Both the position numbers and the translations under genes were made by a program. The notes below the pieces were generated by a model that worked only from the letters and a program-made list of their open reading frames with translations, was not told the DNA's origin and searched no databases. Positions 5,305-44,677 of a DNA stretch of 64,000 bases are shown here, one piece after another. The DNA comes from Vibrio aerogenes (GTDB lineage: Bacteria; Pseudomonadota; Gammaproteobacteria; Enterobacterales; Vibrionaceae). How positions within the stretch are numbered: position 1 is the stretch's first letter; each line of letters starts with the position of its first letter. The stretch is taken from the NCBI RefSeq assembly GCF_024346755.1, contig NZ_AP024861.1, positions 3,596,001-3,660,000 of the forward strand. Direction: 5' to 3'.

Positions 5305-6350
5305 CCGGAACATTCCTTTTTAATCAAATCACTTAAATAAACTTCTCCCGTCGCACCAATAAAACGCACTTCATGCTCAAGTGAAACACCATATGTTTCA
5401 AATACCCGGGAATAAACATGGGCAGCTAACCGGATAACATCTTCCGCAGTTGCATTATCATCATTCACCAAAACAAGCGCCTGATTTGGGTGTACCTGCG
5501 CTCCGCCAATCTTCATACCTTTCAGGCCACATTGTTCAATCAGCCAACCCGCCGCCAGCTTCACACCCTGTTCCTGAGGATAACTTACAATATCGGGAAA
5601 ACGTTGTTTAATCAGTTCAAAATCCTCATGTGAAATCACCGGATTTTTGAAGAAACTCCCGGCATTACCGCTCACCTCCGGGTCCGGTAATTTTTCCTGA
5701 CGAATATGACAAACATGTTCAAAAACCGCTTCAGCCCCGGCATCTTCAGGAAGCTGGCGCAAAGCACCATAATGCAGTGCAGGCGCTCTGTTTTTCACGA
5801 CAACCAATCCGATAGCAACCACAACAGCCTTTTGATACAAATGATGTTTAAAAACTGAATCTCTGTAACCAAAACAGCATTCATTTTTACTGAGGCGGTG
5901 AACGGTCAGGCTTTCCAGACAGAGGTAATCAACATATTCACAGATATCTTTGAATTCAATGCCATAAGCACCAATATTTTGGATCGGTGCACTACCTGCG
6001 CAACCCGGAATCATGGCAAGGTTTTCAAGTCCGGCTATATTTTGTCTGACGGTATTTTCCACCAAATCAGGCCAGTCTTCTCCGGCGCTGACGTGTAAAT
6101 GATAGGTCGCACTATTTTCAGAAATTGTAATTCCTTTCAGACAATTGATGATGACAACCCCATCAAAGAAAGTAGTAAACAGTACATTACTTCCCTGCCC
6201 CAGAACCATTTTAGGCAGATTTTTCCACTCAGGCCGGCGATAAACATCAACCAGCTCATCAACAGAACTCACCTCGACCAAAAACCGACAACATTGCGCA
6301 ATACCAAAAGTATGGTAAGCACGCAGGCTGGCATTCGAATGTATTTGCAT
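5301..6350 (-). CDS. murB: UDP-N-acetylenolpyruvoylglucosamine reductase MurB
   Basis: A 349-aa FAD-dependent cytoplasmic enzyme that reduces UDP-GlcNAc-enolpyruvate to UDP-MurNAc in peptidoglycan synthesis. The FAD-binding part has LGQGSNVLF and PGCAGSAPIQNIGAYG. The catalytic residues of type I MurB are visible: the Arg of GYRDS, the Ser of GNAGSFFKNP, and the Glu of EHEVRFIG near the C-terminus. It is translationally coupled to birA, as in E. coli. Confidence 0.97.
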   Translation of the reverse strand: MQIHSNASLRAYHTFGIAQCCRFLVEVSSVDELVDVYRRPEWKNLPKMVLGQGSNVLFTTFFDGVVIINCLKGITISENSATYHLHVSAGEDWPDLVENTVRQNIAGLENLAMIPGCAGSAPIQNIGAYGIEFKDICEYVDYLCLESLTVHRLSKNECCFGYRDSVFKHHLYQKAVVVAIGLVVVKNRAPALHYGALRQLPEDAGAEAVFEHVCHIRQEKLPDPEVSGNAGSFFKNPVISHEDFELIKQRFPDIVSYPQEQGVKLAAGWLIEQCGLKGMKIGGAQVHPNQALVLVNDDNATAEDVIRLAAHVYSRVFETYGVSLEHEVRFIGATGEVYLSDLIKKECSG

Positions 6351-15241: not shown

Positions 15242-16735
15242 ATGAGCCAGGTCGTACCTTCACCACTATATGCAGCTATTGATTTAGGTTCCAATAGCTT
15301 CCACATGCTCATTGTCCGCCATGTCAATGGCAGTGTACAAACAATGGCAAAAATCAAGCGTAAAGTCAGACTTGCAGCTGGTTTGGATGAGCAAAATACG
15401 TTGAGTGAAGAAGCCATGCAACGCGGCTGGGATTGCCTGCGTCTTTTTGCTGAACGGCTTCAGGATATTCCAGGGGAGAATATCCGGATTGTTGGGACCG
15501 CAACATTAAGAACAGCAACTAATGCAGATGTATTCATCCGGAAAGCCAATCAAATCTTAGGTTATCCGCTTGAAGTCATTCCCGGCACCGATGAAGCCGC
15601 GACGATTTATAAAGGTGTTGCCCATACATCAGGTGGTTCAGGGCGCCGGCTGGTTGTCGATATTGGTGGCGCAAGCACCGAGTTAATCATCGGTGAAGGC
15701 TTCGAAGCAAATGCATTAACCAGCCTGAAAATGGGATGTGTCACCTGGCTTGAAAAACATTTCCGCAACAGGCAACTCACTGAGTCAAACTTTATTCAGG
15801 CGATAGAAGATGCCAAACAAGTTATCCGGCCGGTTTTACAGCAATATCAGAAATTAGGCTGGGATGTCTGTGTTGGCGCAAGTGGTACTGTACAGGCACT
15901 TCAGGAAATCATGCTCGCTCAGGGCATGGATGAAGTGATTACACTGGCAAAACTGAAACGTCTGCAAAATCAGGCGATGTTGGCAGATCATCTGGAAGAA
16001 CTGGAAATTGAAGGCTTAACACTGGAAAGAGCGCTGGTTTTTCCAAGTGGCCTGTCGATTCTGATAGCGATCTTTGAATTGCTGAATATCAGCGCCATGA
16101 CACTGGCTGGAGGCGCACTGCGGGAAGGACTGGTCTACGAAATGATCACCGAACTCCGGCAGGATAATATCCGTGAGCGTACAATCAAAAGTATGCAAAG
16201 CCGTTATCAGATCGACGACATCTATGCCGGGCAGGTGGCAAACCTTGCCAGCCAATTGTTTCAGCAGTGCGGCGGGTCAGCATGGATTCCTGAGCCACAG
16301 TCTGAAATGCTGCTCAGAACTGCGGCTCAATTACATGAAATCGGTCTGTCGATTGATTTCAAAACAGGTGGTCAGCATAACGCCTATCTCATTCAACATT
16401 CAGATCTGCCGGGATTTACCCGGGCCCAGCGTTATTTTCTGGGTGAGTTAACCCGGCGCTACCGGGATACGTTAACATCGTTACCGGAACAACATGCATT
16501 GTCCAGCACCAGTGGTAAAAGGCTGCTGAGGTTACTGAGACTGGCAGTATTGCTCAGTCACCGCCGGGATCAACAGCTGGTTCCGGAATTTGTCGTCACG
16601 GCAGACAAAGAAAAACTGACACTCAGTATTGATCTGCAATGGCTGGACAACAACCCACTCACCAAAGCTGAGCTGGAAACAGAGAGTAACCGGCAAACCG
16701 ATATGGGGTGGCCACTGGTACTCACCGAAAAATAG
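15242..16735 (+). CDS. gppA: Guanosine-5'-triphosphate,3'-diphosphate pyrophosphatase
   Basis: A 497-aa member of the Ppx/GppA family (E. coli GppA 494 aa). It converts pppGpp to ppGpp in the stringent response and may also hydrolyse polyphosphate. The actin-like ATPase fold signatures are visible: [16 protein letters not shown] near the N-terminus and [16 protein letters not shown] near residue 140. A C-terminal HD-like helical domain with [11 protein letters not shown] follows. It is in an operon with rhlB. The GppA label over Ppx is supported by this neighbour. Confidence 0.94.
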
Positions 16736-16771
16736 CAGGAAAAAGTCCCGGTTTCAGCGCACTCTCCGGCC

Positions 16772-19700
16772 TCACGTCTGAGATAATCCTTCTTCCGGGC
16801 CTTTCTTCTCATTCTTTACCCGGTTCAACATGGCTCTTAGTTTAATTGGCTTGACCGGTTTCGGCATGAACCGGAATCCATGTGATTCAATCACATCCAG
16901 CATATCCTCTGTCCGGTCTGCACTGATGATAATCCCTTCAAACCGATCACCGAGCCGGAGCCGGCATTGCTGTAATACTTCAAGTCCTGTCCGACCATGA
17001 TCCAGCCGGTAATCAGAGAGAATGACATCCGGATGCCAGCGCTCATCAATTTTTCTTAATCCGGAAACTAAATCTTTTGCCGTTCTGATATCGACACCCC
17101 AACGAGACAACAATGCGGTCATTCCTTCCAGAATATCCGATTCATTATCAATACAAAGCACTTTGATTCCAGCTAATCCGCCATCTGTGGATACCTTTTG
17201 CTCTGCGGGCTTCTTCTTCACATCCGATGCTTTGGCTCTGCGCAATTTCAGATAGAACACACTACCCTGCCCCGGCCATGAACGCATATCTATTCTGTGG
17301 CCAAGTACCTGAGCAATACCTCTGGAGATCGCCAGCCCCAGTCCAACGCCCTGATCAGACTGAACCCGGCCACCCCGGTTAAATTCTTCAAAAATATCCT
17401 GCTGTTTATCTTCCGGGATACCAATGCCGTTATCCCAGACTTCAATCCGGATTTGATTGCCGTCATGTCTGACGCCTAATATCACTTTCCCGTTGGTCGT
17501 ATAGCGAAATGCATTGGTCAGAAAGTTCTGAATGACACGGCGTAAAAGTTTCGGATCTGACCGGACATATACCGAAGAAGGCACCATCGAAAAATCAATG
17601 CCCTGCTGACGGGCAAGTACATGAAACTCAGCATCCAGATGGCTCAGTACATCATGGACGGCAAAAGCATGGATATTGGTATCCAGCTTCCCTGACTCCA
17701 GCCGTGAAATATCCAGTAAATCACCAATCAACTCTTCAGCCGCACCAAGGGCACTTTCAATGTGCATTGACAAATGTTGCGTCTCTTCCTCTTGAGTCAG
17801 CTCTGACAGTGATGATGCAAACAGCCGGGCAGCATTCAGAGGCTGCATGAGATCATGACTGACTGCCGCCAGAAAACGGGACTTGGACTGTGATTCCCGT
17901 TCAGCGCGCTGCGTTTCCTGCACCAGCTGACGGTTAAGCTTTTCAAGCTCTCTGGTTCGCCTGTGAACCCGTTCTTCGAGAAACTCATTCGTTTGTTTGA
18001 GAGCATCCTCGGCATCGCGAAAAACTGTAATATCAGAAAAAAGCATCACAAAACCACCACCAGGCATCGCATTACCCTGTACTTCAATGACCCGGCCATC
18101 AGGCCGCATCCGGGAAGAGGTATGACTGGTTCCGGCTTCAAGGTGGCGTAATCTCTTTTGAACATGGGCTTCAATATCTCCCGGTCCACACAATCCCTGT
18201 TCTGCATTATGACGGATGACATCCGCAACAGGCCGTCCGACCTGAATCAGCCCCTGAGGAAAATCAAACAGTTCCAGATAGCGCTGATTCCAGGCGACCA
18301 GACGAAGCTGCTTATCAATGACGGAAAGCCCCTGCCCGATATGTTCGATTGCACCTTGCAGCAAGCCCCGGCTAAAATCATATAATTCAGAGGCTTCATC
18401 AACGATAGTTGCAACTTCTTCCAGCTGCATATTGCGGCCCTGCAACGCAGATGACAGCACAAGCCTGGCCGAAGAAGCCCCAAAAATCCCGGCTAATACT
18501 CTTTCTGCATGCCGGATTAAAGATGAAGGCGCCTGCTGCTGAGGTATTCTCAGTCCGGAATATCTTTCCCAGAACTGTGAAAAAGCCGTTTCCATCCGGC
18601 TCCGGCCAACAAAACGGGCGACCAGCATTTCCAGTTCAGTGACAGTCACCCGGCTGTGATAAAGCGTCATATTATCGCTTTCAGGAAAAGGGCTGCCCAC
18701 GAAAGAAGCTGATTGTAAGCGCTCACCAATAGACAGACGTGTCATTTTTGACACACCCACATAGCAAAGTGCATTCACAATGACACTGAGAATCATCCCC
18801 CAGTCAGACAAGCTGATACCCAGATCAGAGATAAACCAAGGTGGAGAGATAAGCCAGAGTAATGGATTGGTTTGTTGATCTCCGGCTAACAGATTCGTCT
18901 GTGACATCAATGTCACACCCCATATGATAAACCCGGTTATCAACCCGGCATAAACGCCCTTCTTGTTCCCTTCCCGCCAGAAAAGACCACCAATTAAAGC
19001 CGGTGCAAACTGTGCAACAGCAGCAAAAGAGAGAAACCCAATCGCTGAGAGTGACGGCACAGCATCCAGTACATGATAAAAAAACCATGCTCCGGCCAGC
19101 AACAGACAAATGATTCCCCGGCGAACGATCAGCAGAATCCGGGAGAAATATTGTTGTCCCCGCTGCATAAATTTAAACCGTCGCAGCAACAGAGGCACAA
19201 CCAAATCATTAGAAACCATGATGGTCAATGCAATCGTGGAGACAATCACCATGCCTGTCGCTGCCGAGGTGCCCCCCAAAAATGCAATCAGGGCAACAAA
19301 GTCTGCCCCAATCATCTTGGGCACATGAATCACGTAAGTATCGGCCAGACTGACATCCAGCATCGACTTTCCTACCCAGGAAACAGGCAGAACAAACAAC
19401 CCCATTAACAGTAAATAAAGCGGGAAGACCCAGCGGGCGGTATGCAAATCTCCCGGGTGCTCATTTTCGACCACCATCGTGTGGAACAACCGGGGTAAAC
19501 AGAGCACCGCCAACATGGTTAAAATCAAATGAATCAGCAATCCGGGCCAGTCAGGAGCAGTCATCGCTCCCCGGGCTTCTGCCATCAGGTCAACCGAATC
19601 CGAAGACCAACCGATGTAAAAGATAAAAAGACCGACAAACAAAAACGCAACCAGTTTGACGACAGATTCAAACGCAATAGCCATCATAATGCCACGATGA

Positions 19701-29642: not shown

Positions 29643-31095
29643 CCAACTCATTATCCCGTTAGTCATTTATTTAATGGCGATGTTTGTCATGGCGGCCCTG
29701 ACCCGTCGTCACCGTCAGTCCGGTGCATTCTTAAACGAATACTTTGTGGGCGGACGCAGCATGGGCGGTTTCGTCCTCGCGATGACCTTAGCTGCTACTT
29801 ATGCCAGCGCCAGTAGTTTTATCGGCGGACCGGGTGCAGCATATAAAATGGGATTAGGCTGGGTTTTACTGGCCATGATCCAACTCCCGGTGGCGTGGTT
29901 AACGTTAGGGATTCTCGGCAAGAAATTCGCAATTGAAGCCCGGCGAAATAATGCCGTGACACTCAATGATATGCTTTACGCCCGCTTTCAGAGCAGAACG
30001 GTTGTCATTCTTGCCTCAGTCGCCCTGTTACTGGCATTTTTCGGCACCATGGTTGTCCAGTTTGTCGGCGGAGCGCGTCTGTTACAGACAGTCACCGGAC
30101 TACCCTACCAGCACGGCCTGTTTTTATTCGCTTTTACGGTCGGAATCTATACCACAATTGGCGGGTTCAGGGCCGTGGTTCTGACTGATACGGTACAAGG
30201 AATTATGATGCTGATTGGTACGGTCGCTCTGCTGGCTGGCGTCATTCACGCGGGCGGCAGCCTGGGCGAACTGATCACCAAACTGCATGAGATCGACCCG
30301 GCGCTCATAACGCCATACGGGCCGAATCATTTTCTCAGTCAGCCGTTTATGCTGAGCTTTTGGATCCTGGTCTGCTTTGGCATGATCGGGCTGCCTCATA
30401 CCGCCATTCGTTGTATGGCATACAAAGACAGCCGCTCACTCCATCAGGGCATCGTTATCAGTACCGCGATGGTTGCGCTGCTGATGCTCGGCACACATTT
30501 GGCCGGAGCTCTGGGCCGGGCGATCGTACCGGATCTTTCCAGCCCGGATCAAATCATGCCGACCCTGATGATGACAGTGCTGCCACCTTTTTTTGCCGGT
30601 ATTTTTCTGGCCGGCCCGATGGCAGCAATTATGTCGACCATCGACTCCCAGTTAATTCAGTCTTCTGCGACACTCCTGAAGGATTTATATATCAACTATA
30701 TCAACCCACAGCTCATGACGCAGAAAGAGTCGGAAACAGAAAGTAAGCTCAACCGGCTATCGTTGTGGATCACCGCTATTTTCAGCTTACTGGTCTTTAT
30801 CGCAGCCACAAATCCGCCGGATATGATCATCTGGCTGAATTTGCTGGCATTAGGCGGGTTACAAGCTGTTTTTCTCTGGCCGCTGGTTTTAGGCTTATAC
30901 TGGAAAAAGGCCTCTGCATCCGGTGCACTGGCTTCAATGTTCTGCGGTTTGAGTACCTATATCGCGCTCACCATCCTGAAGCCCGATCTGCACGGCATAC
31001 ATGCGATCGTCCCTACATTAGCCATTGGGCTGATCGCATTTATTTCCGGTAGCCTGTTGCTTCCGTCAGCCAGAACCGTGCATGCCAGTTCGTAA
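29635..31095 (+). CDS. panF: Sodium/pantothenate symporter
   Basis: A 486-aa integral membrane protein of the sodium:solute symporter family with about 13 membrane helices. Recognisable PanF segments are FLNEYFVGGRSMGGFVLAMTLAATYASASSF near the N-terminus, GGPGAAYKMGLGWVLLAMIQLP, and GPMAAIMSTIDSQLIQSSAT. It imports pantothenate, the substrate of CoaA encoded at 3364. Translation is coupled to yhdT. The ATG at 29635 is chosen; an ATG two codons upstream is also possible. Confidence 0.95.
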   Translation: MNSQLIIPLVIYLMAMFVMAALTRRHRQSGAFLNEYFVGGRSMGGFVLAMTLAATYASASSFIGGPGAAYKMGLGWVLLAMIQLPVAWLTLGILGKKFAIEARRNNAVTLNDMLYARFQSRTVVILASVALLLAFFGTMVVQFVGGARLLQTVTGLPYQHGLFLFAFTVGIYTTIGGFRAVVLTDTVQGIMMLIGTVALLAGVIHAGGSLGELITKLHEIDPALITPYGPNHFLSQPFMLSFWILVCFGMIGLPHTAIRCMAYKDSRSLHQGIVISTAMVALLMLGTHLAGALGRAIVPDLSSPDQIMPTLMMTVLPPFFAGIFLAGPMAAIMSTIDSQLIQSSATLLKDLYINYINPQLMTQKESETESKLNRLSLWITAIFSLLVFIAATNPPDMIIWLNLLALGGLQAVFLWPLVLGLYWKKASASGALASMFCGLSTYIALTILKPDLHGIHAIVPTLAIGLIAFISGSLLLPSARTVHASS

Positions 31096-33738: not shown

Positions 33739-33744
33739 TCGTTG

Positions 33745-33766
33745 TGATACACACCGTGATACACAC
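33745..33766 (+). repeat. Left arm-type repeat (two TGATACACAC boxes)
   Basis: TGATACACAC occurs at 33745 and again 12 bp later at 33757. The same two-box arrangement with identical spacing and one mismatch recurs at 44629-44650. This is the pattern of integrase arm-binding sites. Confidence 0.75.
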
Positions 33767-34014
33767 GGGCAAATCCGTAAACACACGATATAACCTATTG
33801 AGATAGCAAGACTTAATTGTTCTATTCTTGAAGTCATCTCAAAATACCGCTTTATGGTCAGTTCAGTGCAACTTCCGCCTTTTCAGCTTTCTGCTGTACA
33901 TACTTAAAAATGGATTGGCAGCACTCTTTTGTTGCATGTCTGAATGAGATGTATGAAGGATTGAGACAGAGAAGCGGAATCACCTACATGGGCGCTAAAA
34001 ATGACTTGCTCAGG

Positions 34015-34425
34015 CTTCCGGATATAGTTTGATTAAGAATCCGGATACCGAATCTAAATCGCTTGGATTGTGAATGATGAGCAATCAGGGATTATCTGAA
34101 TGGCATTTGATGTGGCTTGATTTAGGGGTCTGATACGGTTTGGTTGAATATCCGGATTGCATATCTGAACGACTTAGATTGTTAATAATCAGGATTCGGG
34201 ATTATCTGGATGGCATATGATGCGGTTAAGTTTGAGGATTCGGATATGGTTTGATTGTATATCCGGATTCCATATCTGAATGGTTTGGATTGTGAATGAT
34301 ATGGTATCGCGATTGCACTTGGTATGGGTTGGTTTTGGGGTTCCGATACCATTTAATTGTATACCTGATTTCACATTTGAGCCGCTTGGATGGTCAATCA
34401 TGGGTGTTCGGATTCATAAAATGGT
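34015..34425. repeat. Degenerate ~100-115-bp tandem repeat array, noncoding
   Basis: Units begin near 34015, 34130, 34240 and 34341. Each opens with a GATAyrGTTTgATT-type block, then TATCCGGATT, CATATCTGAA and a TTGGATTGTGAATGAT-like block. The last unit is shorter. The copies differ by many substitutions, so the array is old. No open frame is supported. The flanking 33767-34014 contains nothing I recognise. Confidence 0.7.
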
Positions 34426-34488: not shown

Positions 34489-34689
34489 TTATTGCTTTAT
34501 TCTGCCCTTCTCAGAAGTGACTACCTTACCGATTGAGTCCTGAATCGTGATTAACTTATTCATGTAAAGCAGCACCTCATGAAAATCATGATCTGAAGGA
34601 TTCATCTTGCGCAGATAATCTTCAATCTGAATAAGATATTCACGGGCTTTCTGTGAAAGGTGTGGGTCGTAAGCGATTGTTGCAGGCAT
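34489..34689 (-). CDS. Small island protein of unknown function
   Basis: A 66-aa acidic/basic helical protein (MPATIAYDPHLSQKAREYLIQIEDYLRKMN...), not recognised. The ATG at 34689 has a perfect GGAGG ribosome-binding site 6-7 nt upstream, and a terminator follows the stop. These make it a likely real gene despite its size. It is the last gene of the leftward set in the satellite. It lies between the tandem-repeat array and a noncoding block with inverted repeats. Confidence 0.65.
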   Translation of the reverse strand: MPATIAYDPHLSQKAREYLIQIEDYLRKMNPSDHDFHEVLLYMNKLITIQDSIGKVVTSEKGRIKQ

Positions 34690-35063
34690 AAGTGCCTCCG
34701 TACGATGATTTAAAGAAAAAATCACCACCGCAATGGTTCCAAACAGAGAGGTGGTGGACTGATCGAGGTTGGAACAACCGCACGTACGGACACGGCCTGG
34801 CCGAAGTCAGCCTCTCTCAGCCCACCATAATTCTAAACGATTTCGCTCAATAAATAGTCAAAATCGCAAAAAAACAGGTGTGAAAAGATCATATACCGAC
34901 ATGATGTCGATATATCGTACGTTTTATTTGCGAGGTTCCAAACTCGTCACCGGATTTTGCCAGTGAGCGGGTAGGATAATCTTGGTGGGGGTGAGGTGTC
35001 AATTGTTGAAGAACTCGATAACTTCTACATTATAGGTTCCAGTCTGAATATTTGAACGAGATA
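34690..35063. other. Noncoding block with inverted repeats inside the satellite
   Basis: 374 bp without a supported gene. CACCACC (34723-34729) pairs with GGTGGTG (34750-34756). The 9-mer GTTCCAAAC occurs at 34735 and 34935, with an inverted GAGGTTGGAAC near 34765. An A-tract region and a TATATCGTACGTTTTAT segment follow. It could be a promoter, an RNA or part of a replication origin; the sequence does not decide. Confidence 0.35.
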
Positions 35064-36464
35064 TCAATTAATTGGTAGTAAATTTCTTGCTACCTGTAAA
35101 ATATTTTTTCTGATACGAATATCCCTATTTTCTGCTATGGCTACAAAACCCGCAGCTTTGAATTCATTGGCTAATTGAGAAACATGAGGTGCAATCCAGT
35201 TTATAGAGTTACGGGTTCTTCTTGCTAAATTATCTCTGATATCATTGAAGTTTGTTTCGCTAATACAATCCTCTGCCTGATTGCTCAATTCTATAATTAG
35301 ACTACTAATACCATTAAACTTGCTATTGAGGTGATATATACCGTTTGTAGCTGCATACTCCATATGCATTGTCCACGCATTTTGAATATCGTAATTTTCT
35401 TTTTGTAATTCTAGTAACAAGTAACGCCATAAATTAACTGTATAGCGAGGTCTATTCAATAATCCAACCAACGAAAAAGAATCATTGGATTCATACTCCC
35501 AACAAGGCTTGGCATAGCAAGAATCATCGAGAGAGAAATAAGTCAAAAACGATTCAAAACTGATATCTGAACCACATTCTTGAATCGCATAATTAAATCG
35601 TTCTTTAACAAGTTGCATTAACTTTTCTGTATCCCAGCAATTTATTGCCACTAATTTTCCCATATACTTAGCGCCTAATCCTTGTACGATTGAAAATGCT
35701 GAAGAATTAATAGCTATTGCATACGGAGCAATTATACCTGAGTCAGTCAAATCATAAAGTGTTTGAAAATAGCATTGAATATTATGACGAACATTATCGC
35801 TTAATAAATTATCTCTTGAATCATCTATTTCATCGATTTGAAAATAAAGACCAGAAAATATTTTAGATGCTTTCATTTTATCTGTAATTTGATTAATTCT
35901 GGTTACAGGATTTGCATTTTCATTATTTAATATAGATAGAGTTATATTACTCATGGATAATATAGCAGGATCAGCTTCAAATATCTTATTAAAAAAAGAA
36001 AACATTTGTTCAACATTTTCTAGGGCAAATGTTGCAATTTGTTCTATGGTATCTCTTCGATCTAAACCTAATTCAGTTGCAATCTTCCGTATGCCAGCAT
36101 CACCACCACTAGTGAGCTTATTATATGAGCGCTTCGCTATTTCAGTAAGTATCCAAAAGTCAATTGCATATTGAACAGCTCTGCAACGATCATTCATCCC
36201 CCAATTCTGTATTGTATCCACGAGCCTATTAAGTTGTTGATATTCAACTTTACATGTTGAGTCTACTTTTTTAGTATTTGATAACAGTTTTAATAATGAG
36301 GACTTGCCAATTCCTGCTGGCCCATGAATCACAATGATATTCTCTTTATTAATATCTTTAATTTGTTTTAGATCAATTAGGTAATGCTCTAAATTTGCAT
36401 CTTTACTTGCGTCCTCAGCTTCAAATACAGAGGATAGGGCTTTGAACTCATCATGCGTTATCAT
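35064..36464 (-). CDS. P-loop ATPase, candidate anti-phage cargo (gene 2 of a two-gene operon)
   Basis: A 466-aa protein with a clear ATPase core. Walker A is GPAGIGKSS (48-56), Walker B LYFQIDEID (206-214), a sensor-1-like strand AIAINSS (249-255), and a later NRPR motif that could be sensor 2. This order fits AAA+/STAND-type (ORC-CDC6-like) ATPases. The C-terminal 150 residues are helical with no recognised effector motif. The start at 36464 has GAGG 8 nt upstream and overlaps the upstream gene by 14 nt, so translation is coupled. The gene is visibly AT-richer than the replication genes beside it, a sign of separate acquisition. An anti-phage role is inferred from context only. Confidence 0.8.
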   Translation of the reverse strand: MITHDEFKALSSVFEAEDASKDANLEHYLIDLKQIKDINKENIIVIHGPAGIGKSSLLKLLSNTKKVDSTCKVEYQQLNRLVDTIQNWGMNDRCRAVQYAIDFWILTEIAKRSYNKLTSGGDAGIRKIATELGLDRRDTIEQIATFALENVEQMFSFFNKIFEADPAILSMSNITLSILNNENANPVTRINQITDKMKASKIFSGLYFQIDEIDDSRDNLLSDNVRHNIQCYFQTLYDLTDSGIIAPYAIAINSSAFSIVQGLGAKYMGKLVAINCWDTEKLMQLVKERFNYAIQECGSDISFESFLTYFSLDDSCYAKPCWEYESNDSFSLVGLLNRPRYTVNLWRYLLLELQKENYDIQNAWTMHMEYAATNGIYHLNSKFNGISSLIIELSNQAEDCISETNFNDIRDNLARRTRNSINWIAPHVSQLANEFKAAGFVAIAENRDIRIRKNILQVARNLLPIN

Positions 36465-36978
36465 GGTGAACCTCATAAAAAAGAAAGTGTTGCCGCTTAA
36501 CTATTCGGTTCATACCAATCAATAGTTGAACAAGTTGTTTAAAACGAGTTTTAGGATAATCTGTACCCCATTTGCGGTACCAGTTATCAAGGGTTGGAAG
36601 ATTGTTTTCATTTGAGTGGCCAGTATGAATTGATTGCAATAAGCCATCCAAATCATAACCTTGTGATTCTATTTCTTTTCTTAAATGAATTTCAAGAGAA
36701 CGGTCAAAGTCGTTGTTATATATATCTTTGCCTTTTTCAGTAAGCTTCCCTTCGATCCTATCCACTATATTCCAGTATCTAATGTGATTAAACCAAGCCC
36801 TAATAGCCTTATCACTAATAAAAATATCTTTGTCTGTATTCCGATCTTTAATCATAAATGCTTTAGCAAGTTCTTTGTCTAGCTTTAATGAACCTATAAC
36901 ATTGTCATATTGCTCACTTGGGTATTTACCAAATGCAATTATTGATGCTTTAAAACGGTTGTAAGTAATTGGTACCAT
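36451..36978 (-). CDS. Unknown protein, gene 1 of the ATPase operon
   Basis: A 175-aa protein with no recognised family. It contains charged helices and a C-terminal region (LDNWYRKWGTDYPKTRFKQLVQLLIGMNRIVKRQHFLFYEV) that could be a winged helix. AAGG lies about 8 nt before the ATG. It overlaps the P-loop ATPase gene by 14 nt, so the two proteins are probably made in a fixed ratio and work together. A DNA- or RNA-binding partner of the ATPase is a guess. It is AT-rich like its partner. Confidence 0.75.
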   Translation of the reverse strand: MVPITYNRFKASIIAFGKYPSEQYDNVIGSLKLDKELAKAFMIKDRNTDKDIFISDKAIRAWFNHIRYWNIVDRIEGKLTEKGKDIYNNDFDRSLEIHLRKEIESQGYDLDGLLQSIHTGHSNENNLPTLDNWYRKWGTDYPKTRFKQLVQLLIGMNRIVKRQHFLFYEVHHDNA

Positions 36979-37071
36979 AAGTAATGCCTTGATAGCTTTT
37001 CTTTTTGTACAAAACCAGTAATAAATATTTATCCGAAGTTGTTATCACATTCGTTACTATCCCAAATACAC

Positions 37072-38631
37072 TTATTCACAGAACTCCAAGTGAAAAGATG
37101 TCGCCTGCTGTAACTCAATCCGCCACTCAAAAATCCGGGTAATCAATTCACGCCCGACAGTGACTACACCTTTTAATGCTCTTATGAGCTCACTTTCACA
37201 GTATAGACTGCTTTTTATTTCGCCAGTGGTCTGATCAACAGAATATTCATAGTAAGGCTTAAAAACCTGTGCCTTGCGCTCACAGAACACCCCGCCCATC
37301 TGCACGGTAAAGGTTTTCCAGTCGCCTTTGTCGGCAGCTTCAATAATCGCTTTGGGCTTGTCAGACAACCCGGTAATGTCTTTTAAGCGTCGCAGTTCGC
37401 GCCAGACGGTAACGGAACAACCACCCAGTTGCTGAAACTGACGAATACCCCAACAGGCCGCCCATGCGTCCACTCTGGCGGCGGCTTCCTGCGGGTCTTC
37501 GCCATAAAGGCCAGTGTCTAAATCACTGCCATCAATGTTCTTGGAGATGTATTTCGCAATGTAGCCAGTCGATGAGCCTTTGGCCGGGTCGATTTTAACT
37601 TCCGTAAAACGGTGTTTATCTGCGCCGGATTCGTCGCTGTCTTCACGCATGGCGTAATCCCGCATCACTTCAATCATGGGCTGATAGAGGTGCTTTTCAG
37701 CAAACAGCAATAAATGCCAGTGCGGTGTACCATCATGTTGTGGCTCTGCCACCCGGAAGCCGTAAAAGCGGATATTCAGGCGGCTGAGTTTCGCCCGGAT
37801 TAACTGCCATAAGTTATTGAGATAAGCTTGCCCATCCAGCGGGGTGAATCCCTGCCATTTGGGATTGATATCGCCGGATTTGGAATAACTGCGGTGATAC
37901 TTTGACGGACAGGTGATCGTCAGAAAGGCGGCTTCATGGCCGGAATCCTGCGCCAGCTCTTCAAACCCTCTTGCCCGAAGCATCAATTCACCTTTTCTGA
38001 TTTTCGGGTCAGCAACACCTTTTTGTGACAGTTCCAGTAATGAAAAGCGCTGTCCCAGATTGTTCACGGCAAAAGTGTTAGACAGATATTCATGCTGATA
38101 AGCTTTCTGCCGGATTCTGGCCTGTAAGGTGAGCTTTGAACAATACAGACTGGTGCGTTTGTTGACCTGATTCAGGTGATGCAACACAGTTTCAATGTTG
38201 CGTCGCTGGGATTTTCTCAGCTTACGCAACCACCATTTATGATCACAGTACCGTCCCATTTCCCCGGCCAGGGAATAACCTTCTGTCGGAATGATCCCTT
38301 GTTGCCGGATAAAGCAGCGCACAGGCTCAAGGGAGAATTCATCATCCAGATACTGACGACGCAGAGCAAACACCGACTTTGCCAAATGTTTAGCTTTGGC
38401 GCGTAAATCATCTTCACTGAGGTTCAGCTCAAGCTGCTGAAAGGGAACGGAAAGCTTGTCCGCTAACTGCTCTGTGGTGAGGCGTAAAAAGGTATTGCGT
38501 TCAAATTTGGTTGGCCGGGCGAAATACTCACGCAGCAATAAGCGTTGTATTTCCGGCGGAAAGCAACAAAGCCTTTGCTGAACAAAGGCTTTATCATCCC
38601 AATCGACCTGTGAAAAACTGATTGGCTTCAT
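37072..38631 (-). CDS. HUH replication endonuclease (P2 gpA / Phage_GPA type)
   Basis: A 519-aa rolling-circle initiator. The HUH core is visible: AFLTITCPSKYH (motif 1), PQHDGTPHWHLLLF (motif 2, His-Trp-His), and GYIAKYISKNI (motif 3, two candidate catalytic Tyr spaced by four residues, as in P2 A protein). It would nick the element's origin and start replication after excision. Its ATG overlaps the stop of the upstream 88-aa gene (ATGA). It is one of the proteins expected of a minimal satellite. Confidence 0.9.
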   Translation of the reverse strand: MKPISFSQVDWDDKAFVQQRLCCFPPEIQRLLLREYFARPTKFERNTFLRLTTEQLADKLSVPFQQLELNLSEDDLRAKAKHLAKSVFALRRQYLDDEFSLEPVRCFIRQQGIIPTEGYSLAGEMGRYCDHKWWLRKLRKSQRRNIETVLHHLNQVNKRTSLYCSKLTLQARIRQKAYQHEYLSNTFAVNNLGQRFSLLELSQKGVADPKIRKGELMLRARGFEELAQDSGHEAAFLTITCPSKYHRSYSKSGDINPKWQGFTPLDGQAYLNNLWQLIRAKLSRLNIRFYGFRVAEPQHDGTPHWHLLLFAEKHLYQPMIEVMRDYAMREDSDESGADKHRFTEVKIDPAKGSSTGYIAKYISKNIDGSDLDTGLYGEDPQEAAARVDAWAACWGIRQFQQLGGCSVTVWRELRRLKDITGLSDKPKAIIEAADKGDWKTFTVQMGGVFCERKAQVFKPYYEYSVDQTTGEIKSSLYCESELIRALKGVVTVGRELITRIFEWRIELQQATSFHLEFCE

Positions 38632-38894
38632 ATTGCATCCCTCCCTCGTGATGTGAGGGAAAACTCATCCCAGCGAAGGCCGAAGAAGTTCACCGGGGTG
38701 AAGGTAACCAACCCGGCCTGATAAAGTTTATCGACCGTGCCGGAAAATACCCGGACAGGCAACCGGGATTTTGGTTGAACCTCGCCTTTCATTGGACTGT
38801 AATCAGAGCAAACGCGAAACGTTCGCCCGGTTTGCATCCATTGCAGTAATGCTTTTTGTTCTTTGGTGAGAGAAGGAGTAGAAAACTCAGGCAT
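38628..38894 (-). CDS. Small satellite protein between alpA and rep
   Basis: An 88-aa protein (MPEFSTPSLTKEQKALLQWMQTGRTF...) with a possible winged-helix pattern: helix LTKEQKALLQWMQ, later VDKLYQAGLVTF, and a C-terminal strand pair FSLTSRGRDAI. It is not recognised by name. Both ends overlap neighbouring genes (alpA upstream, rep downstream), so it is part of a tight three-gene operon. It may help regulate replication, which is an inference from position. Confidence 0.75.
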   Translation of the reverse strand: MPEFSTPSLTKEQKALLQWMQTGRTFRVCSDYSPMKGEVQPKSRLPVRVFSGTVDKLYQAGLVTFTPVNFFGLRWDEFSLTSRGRDAI

Positions 38895-39129
38895 AGTAAG
38901 CCACCTCCTGAGACAGGTGATCCAGCTTGGTGTGATTGTTTAACCACTGATCTAAGTCTTCTTTGAGGTAACGGACAGCACGCCCGATTTTGATAAAGGG
39001 TGGTGCAACCGTGCGGTTTCCCCGGTGCCCCTCCATTCTGGCCTGACGTAAAAAAGAACGGCTCATGCCGATATAAGCGGCGGTTTCCTGCTCTGTGTAT
39101 GCACGTTTTTCGATGGTGGTTTGTGTCAT
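38887..39129 (-). CDS. alpA: AlpA-family helix-turn-helix regulator / excisionase
   Basis: An 80-aa protein with a MerR-like winged HTH: YTEQETAAYIGMSRSFLRQARMEG, then PPFIKIGRAVRYLKEDLDQWL, the common AlpA/excisionase signature. In satellites such proteins activate or assist integrase-mediated excision. CGGAG lies 8 nt before the start. Three 12-bp tandem repeats (39182-39217) stand just upstream and could be its operator. It is the first gene of the alpA-88aa-rep operon. Confidence 0.85.
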   Translation of the reverse strand: MTQTTIEKRAYTEQETAAYIGMSRSFLRQARMEGHRGNRTVAPPFIKIGRAVRYLKEDLDQWLNNHTKLDHLSQEVAYYA

Positions 39130-39181: not shown

Positions 39182-39217
39182 CGTGCAGATGACCGTGCAG
39201 CTAACCGTGAAGTTAAT
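39182..39217. repeat. Three 12-bp tandem repeats upstream of alpA
   Basis: CGTGCAGATGAC, CGTGCAGCTAAC and CGTGAAGTTAAT stand head to tail. The first copy also forms the palindrome CTGCACGTGCAG with preceding bases (39178-39189). The third runs into the stop codon of the upstream gene. The arrangement suggests a regulator operator or replication iterons. Confidence 0.75.
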
Positions 39218-40130
39218 TTTTCAGTTCGTTTCTGACTTCACTCAGCAGGTTCTGAAAACGGCGGTAAGACATGGTTAATACCACATCACCCCGGCCAAAA
39301 TAAGTAATGTCATCATTGGTGATGTCATCAATCACTGCATCGGTATCAAATTCACGCCCGGTTTCAAGATGGATATCTTTACGCAGTAACACCAGTACCT
39401 TATCTGAACGGGATTTCGGATGTTTCAATAGCACCCGGTGCAAAATCTGTTTGATGGGATTGGTAAACACAACCTCACCGGAGGCTTCCGGCTGCTTTTG
39501 TATTGTCGGAGCGGGTACCGTATCTTTTATCACTTCAAGACCAAACCGTTCAGCGATCTGATTTAAGTCAATCCGTAGGGAGTGCGGTTCAATGGTCAGT
39601 TTTCGGTTTTGCAGGTAACGGGTATTCAGCCTGTTAAGCTCATCACCCATTTTTTCTTTCATTTCAGCCGTAAACATTTCAGTGATCATTTGGCCGACAC
39701 TTTGAAAACCAGTGACATCATAAATCACTTCAGGGTAAGCCCAGAAAGGCTTTTCCCGCCGTGCTGGTAACTTATTCATGTATGGGATGATATATTTTTC
39801 TATGGCTCCGAAAGCCTCTGTCACCGATTGCCAGCCTGAGACTTTTTCCGGCTCAAGGATCTGAAACATCTCTACCATTTTCTCTTTGTTGTAAGCCGCA
39901 AAATGCTTTGAATCTTCCCAGCCTAACCGGACAAATCCCCGGTAATCAAACACCGCACCAACCACAGGCTTATCTTTCACAGCAAACAACGCCCCGGCGT
40001 GCTTCACCTCAACCTTTGCACACAGATGAAGCTCACCATCATCAATTGAATCAAGCACTTCTTCTTTGGTCAGAGATGTTCTTTTTTCTATTTCTTCTAA
40101 CCGGATAAACCGGCGTTTTCTTTGCGCCAT
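39213..40130 (-). CDS. Satellite protein of unknown function (305 aa)
   Basis: A 305-aa protein starting MAQRKRRFIRLEEIEKRTSLTKEEVL, where a small HTH-like segment may recognise DNA. The rest is not recognised. The start at 40130 has CAGG about 10 nt upstream; an ATG at 40175 has no ribosome-binding site. It heads the leftward gene run of the satellite and is separated from alpA by only the 12-bp repeats. It may be a regulator or part of the phage-response module; no motif supports an enzymatic role. Confidence 0.75.
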   Translation of the reverse strand: MAQRKRRFIRLEEIEKRTSLTKEEVLDSIDDGELHLCAKVEVKHAGALFAVKDKPVVGAVFDYRGFVRLGWEDSKHFAAYNKEKMVEMFQILEPEKVSGWQSVTEAFGAIEKYIIPYMNKLPARREKPFWAYPEVIYDVTGFQSVGQMITEMFTAEMKEKMGDELNRLNTRYLQNRKLTIEPHSLRIDLNQIAERFGLEVIKDTVPAPTIQKQPEASGEVVFTNPIKQILHRVLLKHPKSRSDKVLVLLRKDIHLETGREFDTDAVIDDITNDDITYFGRGDVVLTMSYRRFQNLLSEVRNELKN

Positions 40131-40618
40131 GTATAAACCTGTCTGGAGTATTTGTGTGGAATTATTCTGAATCATTGGGAATCTAAGCCGTTTGAGATTG
40201 TGAATAGATTTCCTGTTGAAAGTAGCATTTTAACCCGTTTATACATAAAACACATTGCGATACGTTGATTCCGCATGGAAAAGTGTATCGGTTGACAATT
40301 GGACACAGATGGGAGATGGAAGAACATATACAATTTATACAGTGATGGTGGAAAGGCATTATTGAAAATCGTTTTTGCCCCGAAGCTTCCTAGCCCCGCC
40401 AAACTGGCTCCCCATGAATTCTCTAGAGTGGACAAAATTAATCTAATCTATGAGCGGTGTTTTTCCGTAATTATCTCCTGAAATCGTCTCTGATTCACAC
40501 AAGAGGCTGATATTGATTTAGTTTAATAACAATTGGTAGCATTATAGGTAGAATGTAGGTATGGAGAAATTCCACCTATAAAGTTTTAGAACTCTTTATA
40601 TTTCACATGAGGAACAAA
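40131..40618. promoter_or_regulatory. Divergent regulatory region between the satellite run and the DarT-like gene
   Basis: About 490 bp without a believable gene. It contains TATAGGT (40543-40549) and the inverted ACCTATA (40574-40580), a second TAGGT between them, and AT-rich stretches near both gene starts. Promoters for the leftward satellite genes and for the DarT-like gene should lie here. An 87-codon minus-strand frame (40172-40435) is rejected. Confidence 0.4.
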
Positions 40619-41422
40619 ATGTCTACTTTAGACCAATACAAAGATAAGTATTTTTTCCATTTCACTCACTTAGCTAATCTTAATGATATATTGGTTAATG
40701 GCTTGTTAAGTACAAACGAAAAAAAAGAAAGAAAAATTAAGCATTTAGATGTGGCCTCATCTGATATACAGTGCACTAGACATGAAATGGTAGTGCCATG
40801 TGGACCAAAGGGAAAGATTCACGATTATGTCCCATTTTATTTTTGTCCAAGAACTCCAATGTTTCTTAGCATTATTAAGTCAAGAAATTATGACCAGCCG
40901 TTTTTTATTACCTTTGCTGTCTCATTCGAGAAACTTAAAAGTAAAAAATTTGTTTTTACAAATAAAGCTGCAAATAGAAGGTTTGAACCACCTGAGTTCT
41001 ATGATTGTCCAACACAACTTGATAAATTAAGTTGGGATATTATTGAAAGTAGGTCATGGGGGTGTACTGATGACTCTATTAAACATAAAAAAATGGCAGA
41101 AGCACTTCATTATAAAAAGTTTAACCTTTCCGATGTAGATTATATTGTTGTTTGGAAGGAACAAATTAAAGATTTTGTAAAAAAAGCATTTAATAAAAAT
41201 GGAATTAATTGCCCTCCGATCTACCTTGATGGGAAAAACAAATATTATCACTACTATTATGATCTAAACTGCAATGAAAAAAATTGTTCTTTGGTTCATG
41301 GTCCGATAATTACGAGAGCAACATTTATAAATATTGTAGAGAAAGTAAACGAGAATAGGAGAACTGTTAATGATCACTATAAGTTTGATGATATTGAAGA
41401 TGCTTTACCCCCTCTGTCAGAA
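40619..41422 (+). CDS. DarT-like (DUF4433) DNA ADP-ribosyltransferase, 3' end disrupted by an IS
   Basis: A 268-aa protein with the DarT signature: FHFTHLANLNDIL (about 13-25), then HDYVPFYFCPRTPM (68-81), and the segment HKKMAEALHYKKF, in which E161 aligns with the catalytic Glu of DarT. DarT proteins use NAD+ to ADP-ribosylate bases in DNA and act as toxins or phage-abortive effectors, normally with a DarG macrodomain antitoxin. No DarG is seen in this window. The start at 40619 has GAGGA upstream. The final residues Ser-Glu-stop lie inside the IS3 left end, so the native C-terminus has been replaced. The gene is strongly AT-rich. Confidence 0.82.
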
Positions 41423-41474
41423 TAGTTGCCACTGTTAAAAATTAACCAGTCATAGGGGAGGTTAAAGAGGAATG

Positions 41475-41975
41475 ATGACCCGCTATTCACCAGAAAGAAA
41501 AGAAGCGATCCTGAAAAAAATGTTACCCCCACATTCACTTTCTGTCGCTCAACTGGCAAAAGAAGAAGGGATTTGTGAAGCAACCCTGTACAATTGGCGA
41601 AAAGCATTCAGAGAATCAGGAGTCGTTTTGCCAGACAGTCATACTTCATCTTCACAATGGTCCGCACAAACCAAACTGGCCGTTGTTGCCGACACCCTTT
41701 CTATGACTGAAGCAGAGCTCAGTCAGTACTGCCGTGAAAAAGGCCTGTACCCTGAGCAGGTTCATCAGTGGCGCAGTGAATGTATGCAGGGCTTTATGTC
41801 GGCTAAAGAAAGGGAAGCGGAAGCGAAAAAACAGGCAAAGGCCGATAAACAGGAAATCAAAGCCCTGAAAAAAGAGCTGCGACATAAAGAAAAAGCACTC
41901 GCTGAAACTGCAGCTTTACTGGTGCTGAGAAAAAAGCTCAGAGCCTTTTACGGGGAAGATCCCGGGGACGACTGA
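41475..41975 (+). CDS. IS3-family transposase OrfA
   Basis: A 166-aa protein with an N-terminal HTH (YSPERKEAILKKMLPPHSLSVAQLAKEEGICEATLYNWRKAF) and a second HTH-like segment around residues 70-100. A leucine-zipper-like coiled coil rich in Lys and Glu (AKERAEAKKQAK-type) follows. This is the DNA-binding half of the transposase. At 41930-41936 lies A AAA AAG in the right frame for -1 slippage into orfB. The start is either of two adjacent ATGs (41472 or 41475). Confidence 0.88.
   Translation: MTRYSPERKEAILKKMLPPHSLSVAQLAKEEGICEATLYNWRKAFRESGVVLPDSHTSSSQWSAQTKLAVVADTLSMTEAELSQYCREKGLYPEQVHQWRSECMQGFMSAKEREAEAKKQAKADKQEIKALKKELRHKEKALAETAALLVLRKKLRAFYGEDPGDD
41930..41936 (+). promoter_or_regulatory. 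Programmed -1 frameshift site in the IS
   Basis: The heptamer A AAA AAG is read in the orfA frame as AGA AAA AAG. A -1 shift enters the open orfB frame and continues without a stop to 43030. A GGGGAAGATCCC stem lies about 14 nt downstream and could act as stimulator. Confidence 0.75.
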
Positions 41976-43030
41976 CCTCAACCGAAGACAGGAAAAGTCT
42001 CATAGCACTGATCCATGAAGCCTGCCAGAGTGGTTGCCGGTTAATCAGAGCCTGTGATGAAGCGCAGATTGATTTACGGACTTACCGCCGCTGGTATCAG
42101 GGTGGAAAGGTTCAGGCCGATCAAAGACCACAGGCATTGAGACCGGCGCCGGTCAACAAGCTTTCAGAGCAGGAACGAAGGGCGATTATCGACATCTGTA
42201 ATACTGCAGAATATGCCAGTCTGCCGCCCGCGCAGATTGTTCCGGCCTTGTTGGATAAAGGAGAATATATTGCCAGTGAATCGAGTTTTTACCGGGTCTT
42301 AAAAGCAGCAGGACAGCTGACCGGGAGAGGTCGCCAGAAGAGCCGACAAAAAGTTGTAAAACCAACGAGTTATACTGCGACACAGCCAAATCAGGTCCAC
42401 ACCTGGGATATCACCTATCTGCCTTCAACGGTACGTGGTCAGTTTTACTACCTGTATCTGATTGAAGATATTTACAGCCGGAAAATCGTGGGTTATGAGG
42501 TGCATGAAACCGAATGTGGTGAGTTGGCGTCAGAATTATTGCAACGGACAGTGTTCCGGGAAAAATGTTTTCAACAGGCGTTGGTCCTGCACTCAGATAA
42601 CGGCAGCCCGATGAAGTCCCTGACACTGAAAGCAAAAATGGAAGAGCTTGGCGTGCTCTCTTCTTACAGCCGTCCGCGGGTGAGTAATGATAACCCTTAT
42701 GTGGAATCGCTGTTCCGGACGTTGAAATATATCCCGCAATGGCCATCAAATGGATTTAGAAGTCTGAACGATGCCAGAGAATGGGTAGAGCGATTCGTTC
42801 AGTGGTATAACACGGAGCACAAACACAGTGCGCTCAATTACGTGACGCCAGATGAGCGTCATCATGGAAAAGACAAACAGATTTTAGAAAACCGCAAACA
42901 GGTCTTGATGTTACACCGAGAGGCGAATCCAGCGCGCTGGTCAGGAAATATCAGGAACTGTGAGCCAGTTGGTAAGGTTGAATTAAACCCGGACAAAACA
43001 CCAGAAATTGACGAAGAAAAAGCAGCTTAA
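41936..43030 (+). CDS. IS3-family transposase OrfB (DDE integrase domain)
   Basis: The frame is open from the frameshift site; the first ATG is at 42137 (297 aa from there). The upstream part encodes LIHEACQSGCRLIRACDEAQIDLRTYRRW, the usual OrfB N-terminal HTH. The rve catalytic core has HTWDITYLP (first Asp), VLHSDNGSPM (second Asp), and SNDNPYVESLFRTLKY (Glu), the DDE triad. It is made mainly as an OrfAB fusion. Apparently intact, so the element may be active. Confidence 0.9.
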   Translation, partial: AQSLLRGRSRGRLTSTEDRKSLIALIHEACQSGCRLIRACDEAQIDLRTYRRWYQGGKVQADQRPQALRPAPVNKLSEQERRAIIDICNTAEYASLPPAQIVPALLDKGEYIASESSFYRVLKAAGQLTGRGRQKSRQKVVKPTSYTATQPNQVHTWDITYLPSTVRGQFYYLYLIEDIYSRKIVGYEVHETECGELASELLQRTVFREKCFQQALVLHSDNGSPMKSLTLKAKMEELGVLSSYSRPRVSNDNPYVESLFRTLKYIPQWPSNGFRSLNDAREWVERFVQWYNTEHKHSALNYVTPDERHHGKDKQILENRKQVLMLHREANPARWSGNIRNCEPVGKVELNPDKTPEIDEEKAA

Positions 43031-43363: not shown

Positions 43364-44596
43364 TCAAACCAACCCCTCATATCTTCCCAAAGAAACATCC
43401 TCCCCAAACCCAAGATAATCAACCCAAATCCTCAACGCCTCTGATTTCTCACTCAAATACTGGCTGCGGTTATATATCCCGGATACTCCAGCAACCGTAT
43501 GCCCTAGCAGGTGATCAACTACATGCGGTGCAACGCCTAAATCATTTAGCTTGGTGGCAATCGTCCGGCGTAAGTCGTGAATTGACCATGATTCCTGATG
43601 GTCTAGTTTCTTCCATAAAATCCGGCAATACTGGCTGACTGATTCCGGTGATTTTTCACCGCCAAGCACAAAGCCTGTTTTCTGAGTTTCAAACTTCAGT
43701 TCCAGTAACCAAGGAATGATTGCATCCGGAATGGGGCGAATAATCATTTCAGAGTTTTTACTATTCGCTTTTGGCACCGTCCAAAGTTGCTGATGAAAAT
43801 CCCATTCATCCCATGTTGATAAGCGCACTTCCTGTGTCCGGGCACCAAAAATGACCAGTAACAGAATCAGCCGCTGATAGTATGGGAGTACTTTGTCACC
43901 CTGAATCAGTTCAAGTAATTGTGTGAGTTCTTCATCACTCAACACGCGATCCCGTTTCGCCTGCTTCTTACCTACATCACTGATTATCAGGTCATCTAAG
44001 GCATGGCTGAGGGCAAAGCCCCGCTTACGGCAGAAAATCAGCGCCTGTTTACAATTCTGGAAAATATACCCGGCTGCAACAGGTGCCGCTTTTCGTTTTC
44101 CCGAACCCCGGCGGACTTTATCGAAACAGGAACACCATAATGAAGTGGAAACATCAGCAAGCGGATACCTCCCAAGCGTAGGATAAATATGTCGTTCAAA
44201 CTGTGCCTGATGCCGCTTGTAATTTTTCCGGTTTTCTTTCGCATAGTGCTTCAGCCAGTAGTCCAGTGCTTCTTTAACCGTCACCGGGTATTGGCGACTT
44301 GCTCTTAACAAGTTCATTTCAACACCTGGATCTTTACCGTTATCCAACCACTCCCGGCAGCGATCGCGCTTTTCTCTTGCCTGCTTCAGTGAAGTTTCCG
44401 GATACGAACCCAAACCTAATAATTTTGGATTGGTCTCCCGTCCGCCTAACCGATAACGATAAATCCAGCCTATTGCACCGTTTTTAGAAATCCGGGCTGA
44501 TAACCCGGAACCATCAGAAATGACGCTTTGACCCTCGTAAGGTTTCCCATAAATTGCTTTTAAGAATCTATCATTGATTTTATTTGTTGTTGCCAT
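43364..44596 (-). CDS. int: Tyrosine-type site-specific integrase (P4 family)
   Basis: A 410-aa integrase. The N-terminal DUF4102-like arm-binding domain begins NKINDRFLKAIYGKPYEGQSVISDGSGL. A SAM-like core-binding domain follows. The catalytic domain has the Arg in FGARTQEVRLSTW, HDLRRTIATKL (His-x-x-Arg), HLLGHTV and the nucleophile Tyr in GIYNRSQYL. It integrates and excises the island at fis. The start at 44596 has CAGGTG upstream; the ATG at 44650 lies in the arm repeats. Reading inward from attR is the usual position. Confidence 0.94.
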   Translation of the reverse strand: MATTNKINDRFLKAIYGKPYEGQSVISDGSGLSARISKNGAIGWIYRYRLGGRETNPKLLGLGSYPETSLKQAREKRDRCREWLDNGKDPGVEMNLLRASRQYPVTVKEALDYWLKHYAKENRKNYKRHQAQFERHIYPTLGRYPLADVSTSLWCSCFDKVRRGSGKRKAAPVAAGYIFQNCKQALIFCRKRGFALSHALDDLIISDVGKKQAKRDRVLSDEELTQLLELIQGDKVLPYYQRLILLLVIFGARTQEVRLSTWDEWDFHQQLWTVPKANSKNSEMIIRPIPDAIIPWLLELKFETQKTGFVLGGEKSPESVSQYCRILWKKLDHQESWSIHDLRRTIATKLNDLGVAPHVVDHLLGHTVAGVSGIYNRSQYLSEKSEALRIWVDYLGFGEDVSLGRYEGLV

Positions 44597-44628
44597 ACAA
44601 GCACCTGGCCGGATAAAACAGCCTTCTG

Positions 44629-44677
44629 TGATACACACCATGATACACACATTTATTTGCGTAACGATGATACACGA
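44629..44677 (+). repeat. Right arm-type repeats (TGATACACAC boxes)
   Basis: TGATACACAC at 44629 and 44641 (12-bp spacing, as at the left end), plus a third partial box TGATACACGA at 44668. They lie upstream of int and probably bind the integrase N-terminal domain. They may also overlap the int promoter. Confidence 0.75.

Follow-up and report, generated by a model that had tools for sequence, protein, structure and literature searches.

In a 64,000-nucleotide (nt) stretch of the Vibrio aerogenes genome (assembly GCF_024346755.1, contig NZ_AP024861.1, positions 3,596,001 to 3,660,000; hereafter the window), an element encoding a P2-type gpA replication protein carries two overlapping genes, for a 175-amino-acid (aa) protein and a 466-aa P-loop ATPase. 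We interpret this pair as probably an anti-phage cassette, in which a divergent ATPase of the Fun(Z) type is coupled to an orphan partner protein and occupies the origin-proximal slot of a gpA satellite beside fis. The cassette of two genes is real and intact, the ATPase belongs to the same protein family as the phage-exclusion protein Fun(Z) of phage P2, and the slot is bounded by the gpA nick site and differs in content between sibling elements. From these we infer a defence function.

A divergent Fun(Z)-type ATPase and its orphan partner

The open reading frame (ORF) listing confirmed both genes (Table 1), with an overlap of 14 nt. This overlap follows from an internal ATG at 36464, with GAGG 6 bases upstream. 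A start at the upstream ATG (36476) would give an ATPase of 470 aa (35064-36476, reverse strand) and is without a clear ribosome site. AAGG precedes the ATG of the 175-aa gene; these ribosome-site assignments were made by eye. The cassette is AT-rich, with a GC content of 32.8% versus 48.8% for gpA. The overlap, the intact Walker A and Walker B motifs, and the higher AT content relative to the neighbouring replication gene had all been put forward in an earlier reading of the DNA alone (the original prediction), and all three hold.

In NCBIfam, the ATPase scored 103 bits (cut-off 75, E-value 2e-29) against NF047389, “P-loop ATPase, Sll1717 family”, with the match covering residues 14-447. The second-best model (4e-4) scored 83 bits lower. 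P2 Fun(Z) scores 209 bits against NF047389. Since both proteins score above the cut-off, the window ATPase is, as judged from sequence, a distant homologue of Fun(Z), a proven phage-exclusion protein. The original prediction had recognized no named defence system in the pair; this does not stand for the ATPase, which joins the Sll1717 family alongside Fun(Z), while the small protein found no known system or family. Matches of the ATPase to Pfam were at the level of the P-loop and under the cut-off, and those to PADLOC and PHROGs were weak. Among 296 Vibrionaceae genomes, 19 exceeded the NF047389 cut-off, as did 11 of 369 class-level genomes (the window’s own counted in each) and none of 14 control genomes. 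A protein search of the 369 class-level genomes with the ATPase returned only itself, and its close relatives among 5.8 billion proteins were confined to identical sequences flagged as the window’s own. No close relative of either protein appeared in plasmids, phages, IMG/VR or genome contigs, and E. coli genomes contained nothing that matched the cassette DNA.

Alignment of 16 family members revealed M1, G51, G53, K54, D211, D214, P339 and R340 to be invariant and W277 nearly so. Across 29 aligned members, D211, D214, P339 and R340 remain invariant, with G51, G53, K54, W277 and F310 nearly invariant. The window ATPase retains every one of these residues, and is shown to be a divergent Sll1717/Fun(Z) member with intact nucleotide-binding motifs. 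A profile built from the 16 members matched PDB sequences mostly in the P-loop region. The closest folds to the low-confidence ATPase model were ORC/Cdc6-type replication initiators and TnsC; no entry of the viral fold library matched at E<=0.001.

The 175-aa protein found only itself or chance-level matches in every search (Pfam, PADLOC, PHROGs, NCBIfam and protein collections), and its sole relative among 5.8 billion proteins was the window’s own identical sequence. Of the 296 Vibrionaceae genomes, 35 gave a match at E<=1, counting the window’s own. The strongest of the others (E 0.002) are at chance level over this number of genomes, and three inspected weak matches (L162-L164) align to long proteins of other kinds. 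A single-sequence fold prediction was useless (predicted local distance difference test, pLDDT, 38). Identity with DUF4007 or BrxA, a first guess by eye, was rejected: the hhalign scores of 10.9 and 11.9 were below those of the best shuffles (21.7 and 17.8; 20 shuffles each, with family profiles of only 3 and 4 sequences). A tandem winged helix is an impression from the sequence, and comparison to the TIR/winged-helix protein of locus L006, described below, gave no meaningful match. Thus, the nucleic-acid binding originally suggested for the small protein gained nothing from profile searches, fold prediction or the DUF4007/BrxA comparison.

The gpA nick site borders an exchangeable cargo slot

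We compared the window by blastn with 26 sibling loci (L063-L068 and L141-L160). Towards gpA, the similarity of all 26 loci breaks off at 37055-37067, and in 20 of them exactly at 37064; for L147, L149 and L150 this final stretch consists of just the origin site, separated from gpA. At the far side, similarity returns just before the C4 RNA, at 35008 in L063, L141 and, for only 78 bp, L145, and at 34981 in L142. The other 22 loci have no far-side similarity. L142 has the same fis site and the same terminal repeat with a different cassette. The pair is thereby shown to occupy a slot with different contents from one sibling element to another.

At the gpA-side boundary lies a 24-bp site, CTTGGAGTTCTGTGAATAA(G/C)TGTA, which is present once, and in a single orientation, in all 26 sibling loci. 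It mostly overlaps or abuts the gpA stop codon, but is found beyond it by about 90 bp in L066, 0.3 kb in L158, 1.5 kb in L147 and L149, and 4 kb in L150. Since it occurs past the gpA stop in several loci, it is a site at the DNA level rather than coding sequence alone; that it is merely the gpA C-terminal coding sequence was rejected on the basis of L147, L149, L150 and L158. The P2 counterpart (29889-29912, CTCGGAGTCCTGTCAATAACTGTG) shares 20 of its 24 positions with the C form, and the annotated nick site (29892) falls within it. The gpA nick site marks the edge of the exchangeable cargo.

The pair begins about 85 bp past this nick site, on the same strand as gpA. Together with closest folds among replication initiators and TnsC, this would suit a pair that serves the satellite itself, as a helicase loader or replication regulator with a small DNA-binding partner. 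We consider this unlikely. The cassette is without blastn similarity in all 26 siblings (L144 extends only 0.57 kb past the site), which indicates that elements of this type can do without it, and P2 fun(Z), located more than 10 kb from gene A, is recorded as non-essential.

For a survey of slot contents, we dropped L144, where the contig runs out 0.57 kb past the site, and L149, which duplicates L147 within one genome. Of the remaining 24 loci, 23 were scanned against PADLOC using 1-3 selected ORFs each (L066 was left out), with part of the scans reporting E<=1e-8 only. Eleven of the 23 slots gave a match at E<=1e-20, some PADLOC matches lying 2-5 kb past the 24-bp site, where they may fall outside the element. 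The matches are to PD-Lambda-4 (L141), PDC-M26A (L146), BovA (L147), type IIG restriction (L148), SIR2 (L150), LmuB (L151), DRT UG5-nitrilase (L157), PD-Lambda-2_C (L160), Helicase with DUF2290 (L064), PD-Lambda-2_B (L065) and ATPase-Toprim (L068). Three further slots (L067, L152 and L159) gave weak matches. This supports a slot with defence-rich cargo, though not defence only. The original prediction had placed the pair in a cargo position of a phage satellite where defence genes are frequent; comparison with the 26 siblings agrees with the position, and the slot survey with the frequency.

The slot of L142, which is sited at fis, encodes a protein (4459-5949, reverse strand) whose N-terminal domain is Hcp (the type VI secretion tube) and whose C-terminal region matches DUF3289 chains. 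It adjoins a 99-aa ORF, and represents bacterial-competition cargo in a satellite-like element. The window pair could by analogy be toxin-antitoxin or competition cargo, a small protein with a neutralizing or delivering partner, and a small gene placed first with an overlap is a common toxin-antitoxin layout. To our knowledge, the Sll1717/Fun ATPase is not a known antitoxin; in addition, Pfam and NCBIfam scans found no type VI secretion marker in the window cassette, and Fun(Z) itself blocks phages. We regard this alternative as rather unlikely.

Effectors accompany some members of the ATPase family

The partners of the ATPase vary across the family. In the Vibrionaceae locus L006 (754-3549), a 234-aa TIR protein (PF10137, 102.7 bits) is encoded 27 nt upstream of an Sll1717-family ATPase; its winged-helix matches are weak and under the cut-off. 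P0014 is a family ATPase fused to an Mrr nuclease (105 bits). L069, L070 and P0013 contain a fused nucleoside-deoxyribosyltransferase-like region, TIR-like by our interpretation, and L076 a ParA-like fused region, all with matches under the cut-off. The L006 neighbour, the Mrr fusion and these weaker fusions indicate that some Sll1717-family members accompany effectors. An overlapping orphan partner was seen only in the window: among 22 other members, no upstream ORF of at least 100 aa overlaps the ATPase gene, and the short overlapping ones are of 53 aa (L070) and 76 aa (L073). These 22 comprise members with a whole ORF in the fetched locus plus P2 Fun, and leave out the broken or partial members L015-L019, L076 and L077 and members without a locus. 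As for recurrence of the same gene pair elsewhere, a two-gene unit does exist in L006, with a gap and a TIR partner; the overlapping pair was found in none of the 22 members, and none of the 26 siblings has blastn similarity to the cassette.

The L006 unit of TIR protein and ATPase is a candidate defence system in its own right. In L079-L082, ATPases scoring below the cut-off each directly follow a ParA/MinD-like gene (by eye), and a restriction-type or helicase-type gene lies beside two of the four.

Proposed function of the pair

In the anti-phage interpretation, coupled translation would bring the two proteins into one complex. The ATPase may act as an ORC/Cdc6-like, ATP-driven switch on DNA that senses an infecting phage, probably through its replicating DNA. 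ATP binding would be the switch, read out or aimed by the 175-aa protein during phage DNA replication. This protein could be the target-recognition or effector subunit, taking the role of the fused or adjacent TIR or Mrr domains in relatives. Activation would then halt the phage or the cell, as for Fun(Z).

Several points weigh against this interpretation. The window ATPase is just 13-17% identical to other members in pairwise comparison (alignment of 16), and its predicted model is weak (pLDDT 60.5). An R-x-D/E motif after strand 4, common but not defining (13 of 16 rows), is replaced by AINSSAF; it is also missing from L074 and L078. The 175-aa protein offers no relative, domain or usable model, and P2 Fun(Z) acts as a single cloned gene according to its record note. 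A promoter scan of the region found 13 promoter-like sites, below the 21.3 of shuffled sequence, and we therefore claim no promoter. At the slot, the eleven PADLOC matches have no background rate for comparison, nine of the 23 scanned loci (L063, L142, L143, L145, L153, L154, L155, L156 and L158) gave no PADLOC match within the E-value limits applied, and the Hcp fusion of L142 indicates that the slot is not solely for defence.

The pair might instead act only against the element’s own helper or rival satellites, as a helper-interference or superinfection module. Its location in a satellite fits, and UP2 of the PICMI satellites acts mainly on relatives of its helper phage, according to the available part of that report (PMC10803314). 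No helper is known for this element, the action of Fun/Z in E. coli is broad, and we find such a narrow role quite improbable. Least probable is a decaying acquisition with no present function. In its favour are the AT-richness of the cassette, the lack of relatives and the remnant state of another gpA element of this genome. Against it, neither reading frame is interrupted, the ATPase keeps its core motifs, and each start codon follows a sequence resembling a ribosome site.

A more specific form of the anti-phage interpretation, which we offer as a doubtful possibility, is that the pair represents a two-component Fun(Z) branch with an orphan specificity or effector subunit, carried by gpA satellites whose nick site is the point of cassette swapping. 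If so, nicking and strand transfer by gpA may drive cargo exchange. A single ATPase family that contains Fun(Z), TIR- and Mrr-associated members and a member with an overlapping partner makes the old Fun(Z) question testable, and the cassette boundary at the gpA origin is a precise handle to mine such elements for new defence genes.

Other features of the element

The gene content of the element suggests a satellite with a helper. No structural phage genes were found among the element ORFs scanned with Pfam and PHROGs. The terminal 24-bp repeats are identical at 23 of 24 positions. C4 RNAs are also present in L063 (10151-10235), L141 (8683-8767) and L142 (6225-6310). In the window, the C4 RNA is followed by a small ORF (34489-34728), in what we take to be the kil position of P4. 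Three direct repeats with 111-bp spacing (34010-34314) lie near attL, with similar ones in L063, L141 and L142. The second accessory gene encodes a DarT-like protein that scored 143.5 bits in NCBIfam, below the cut-off of 150; no DarG was noticed beside it, and an IS3-like element (41472-43030, by eye) is directly downstream.

Relatives of gpA at E<=1e-90 occur in 32 of the 296 Vibrionaceae genomes, its own included, and none of 324 phage-collection records matching gpA reaches 60% identity. A literature search for this family of gpA elements found no paper, which does not in itself prove absence. A second gpA element of this genome survives as a remnant at L063 (G000:C1:724040-724849), where the 3' part of gpA is 96% identical. 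Within it, an integron attC-like sequence (by eye) comes after a 258-aa ORF of unknown kind.

Table 1 Coordinates of the cassette and of other features of the element in the window
Feature	Position	Strand	Size and basis
Exchangeable cassette	35009..37062	.	about 2.05 kb; stretch without blastn similarity in siblings
Orphan protein, first gene of pair	36451..36978	-	175 aa; ORF list
P-loop ATPase, Sll1717/Fun(Z) family	35064..36464	-	466 aa; NF047389 match and family alignments
Walker A GPAGIGKSS, residues 48-56	36297..36323	-	family alignment
Walker B FQIDEID, residues 208-214	35823..35843	-	D211 and D214 invariant in family alignments
NRPR, residues 337-340	35445..35456	-	P339 and R340 invariant; putatively sensor-2-like
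Conserved 24-bp site matching P2 gpA nick site (replication origin)	37063..37086	-	sibling and P2 comparison
P2-type gpA rolling-circle replication protein	37072..38631	-	519 aa; PF05840 277.7 bits; phrog_91
AlpA/excisionase-like HTH_17 protein	38887..39129	-	PF12728 32.3 bits (cut-off 27); phrog_66
Unknown backbone protein	39213..40175	-	320 aa; BLASTP relatives in 4 of 6 siblings (L064, L065, L067, L068)
DarT-like ADP-ribosyltransferase, second accessory gene	40607..41425	+	PF14487 142.6 bits; E 2.3e-20 to DarT chains
Tyrosine integrase	43364..44650	-	ORF list, Pfam; start more likely 44596 (by eye)
Probable attL, 24-bp repeat	33743..33766	+	begins 65 bp after fis
Probable attR, 24-bp repeat next to int	44627..44650	+	same repeat beside fis in L142
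C4 antisense RNA (P4/P1-type immunity RNA)	34747..34832	-	RF01695 61.7 bits (gathering 45)

Comparison with known systems

Fun(Z) blocks many coliphages by a mechanism described as unknown, according to the accessible portion of PMC8594841. The P2 record (AF063097) places it at 15675-17261 and notes that it is non-essential and that the “cloned gene blocks growth of T5”. A literature search on Sll1717 and funZ gave nothing relevant to the family by title. The window ATPase shares with Fun(Z) the NF047389 match, the Walker A and B, W and PR motifs, and a carrier element with a P2-type gpA. The two differ in that Fun(Z) is 13% identical, is a 528-aa protein encoded by a single gene distant from gene A, has an IRPD motif absent from the window ATPase, and is without the overlapping partner found in the window. 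The L006 pair is similarly built from two genes, the smaller first and an Sll1717-family ATPase (687 aa) second, but has a 27-nt gap in place of the overlap and a TIR effector (PF10137) as the partner. In BREX-type systems, defence loci repeatedly place a small helix-turn-helix protein next to an ORC/Cdc6-like ATPase, in the part of PMC12839542 available to us; the 175-aa protein differs from BrxA and DUF4007 in scoring below the best shuffled controls against both families.

The element resembles the PICMI satellites of Vibrionaceae, as far as the available text of PMC10803314 describes them, in its position beside fis, its integrase and AlpA-like genes and its cargo toward the fis end. PICMI are defined by a primase and have 17-bp repeats, whereas the window element has gpA and 24-bp repeats. 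No DUF3987/DUF5906 primase matched among the element ORFs scanned with Pfam (some small ORFs were left out), and membership is therefore not claimed. The C4 immunity RNA is shared with P4-like satellites. P2 phages themselves have a variable defence hotspot between gpA and gpQ (old/tin), as reported in the accessible section of PMC9122126, and the window likewise carries variable cargo directly 3' of gpA. It differs from the P2 hotspot in that the element is satellite-like and the cargo boundary is the nick site, which in P2 is located inside gene A.
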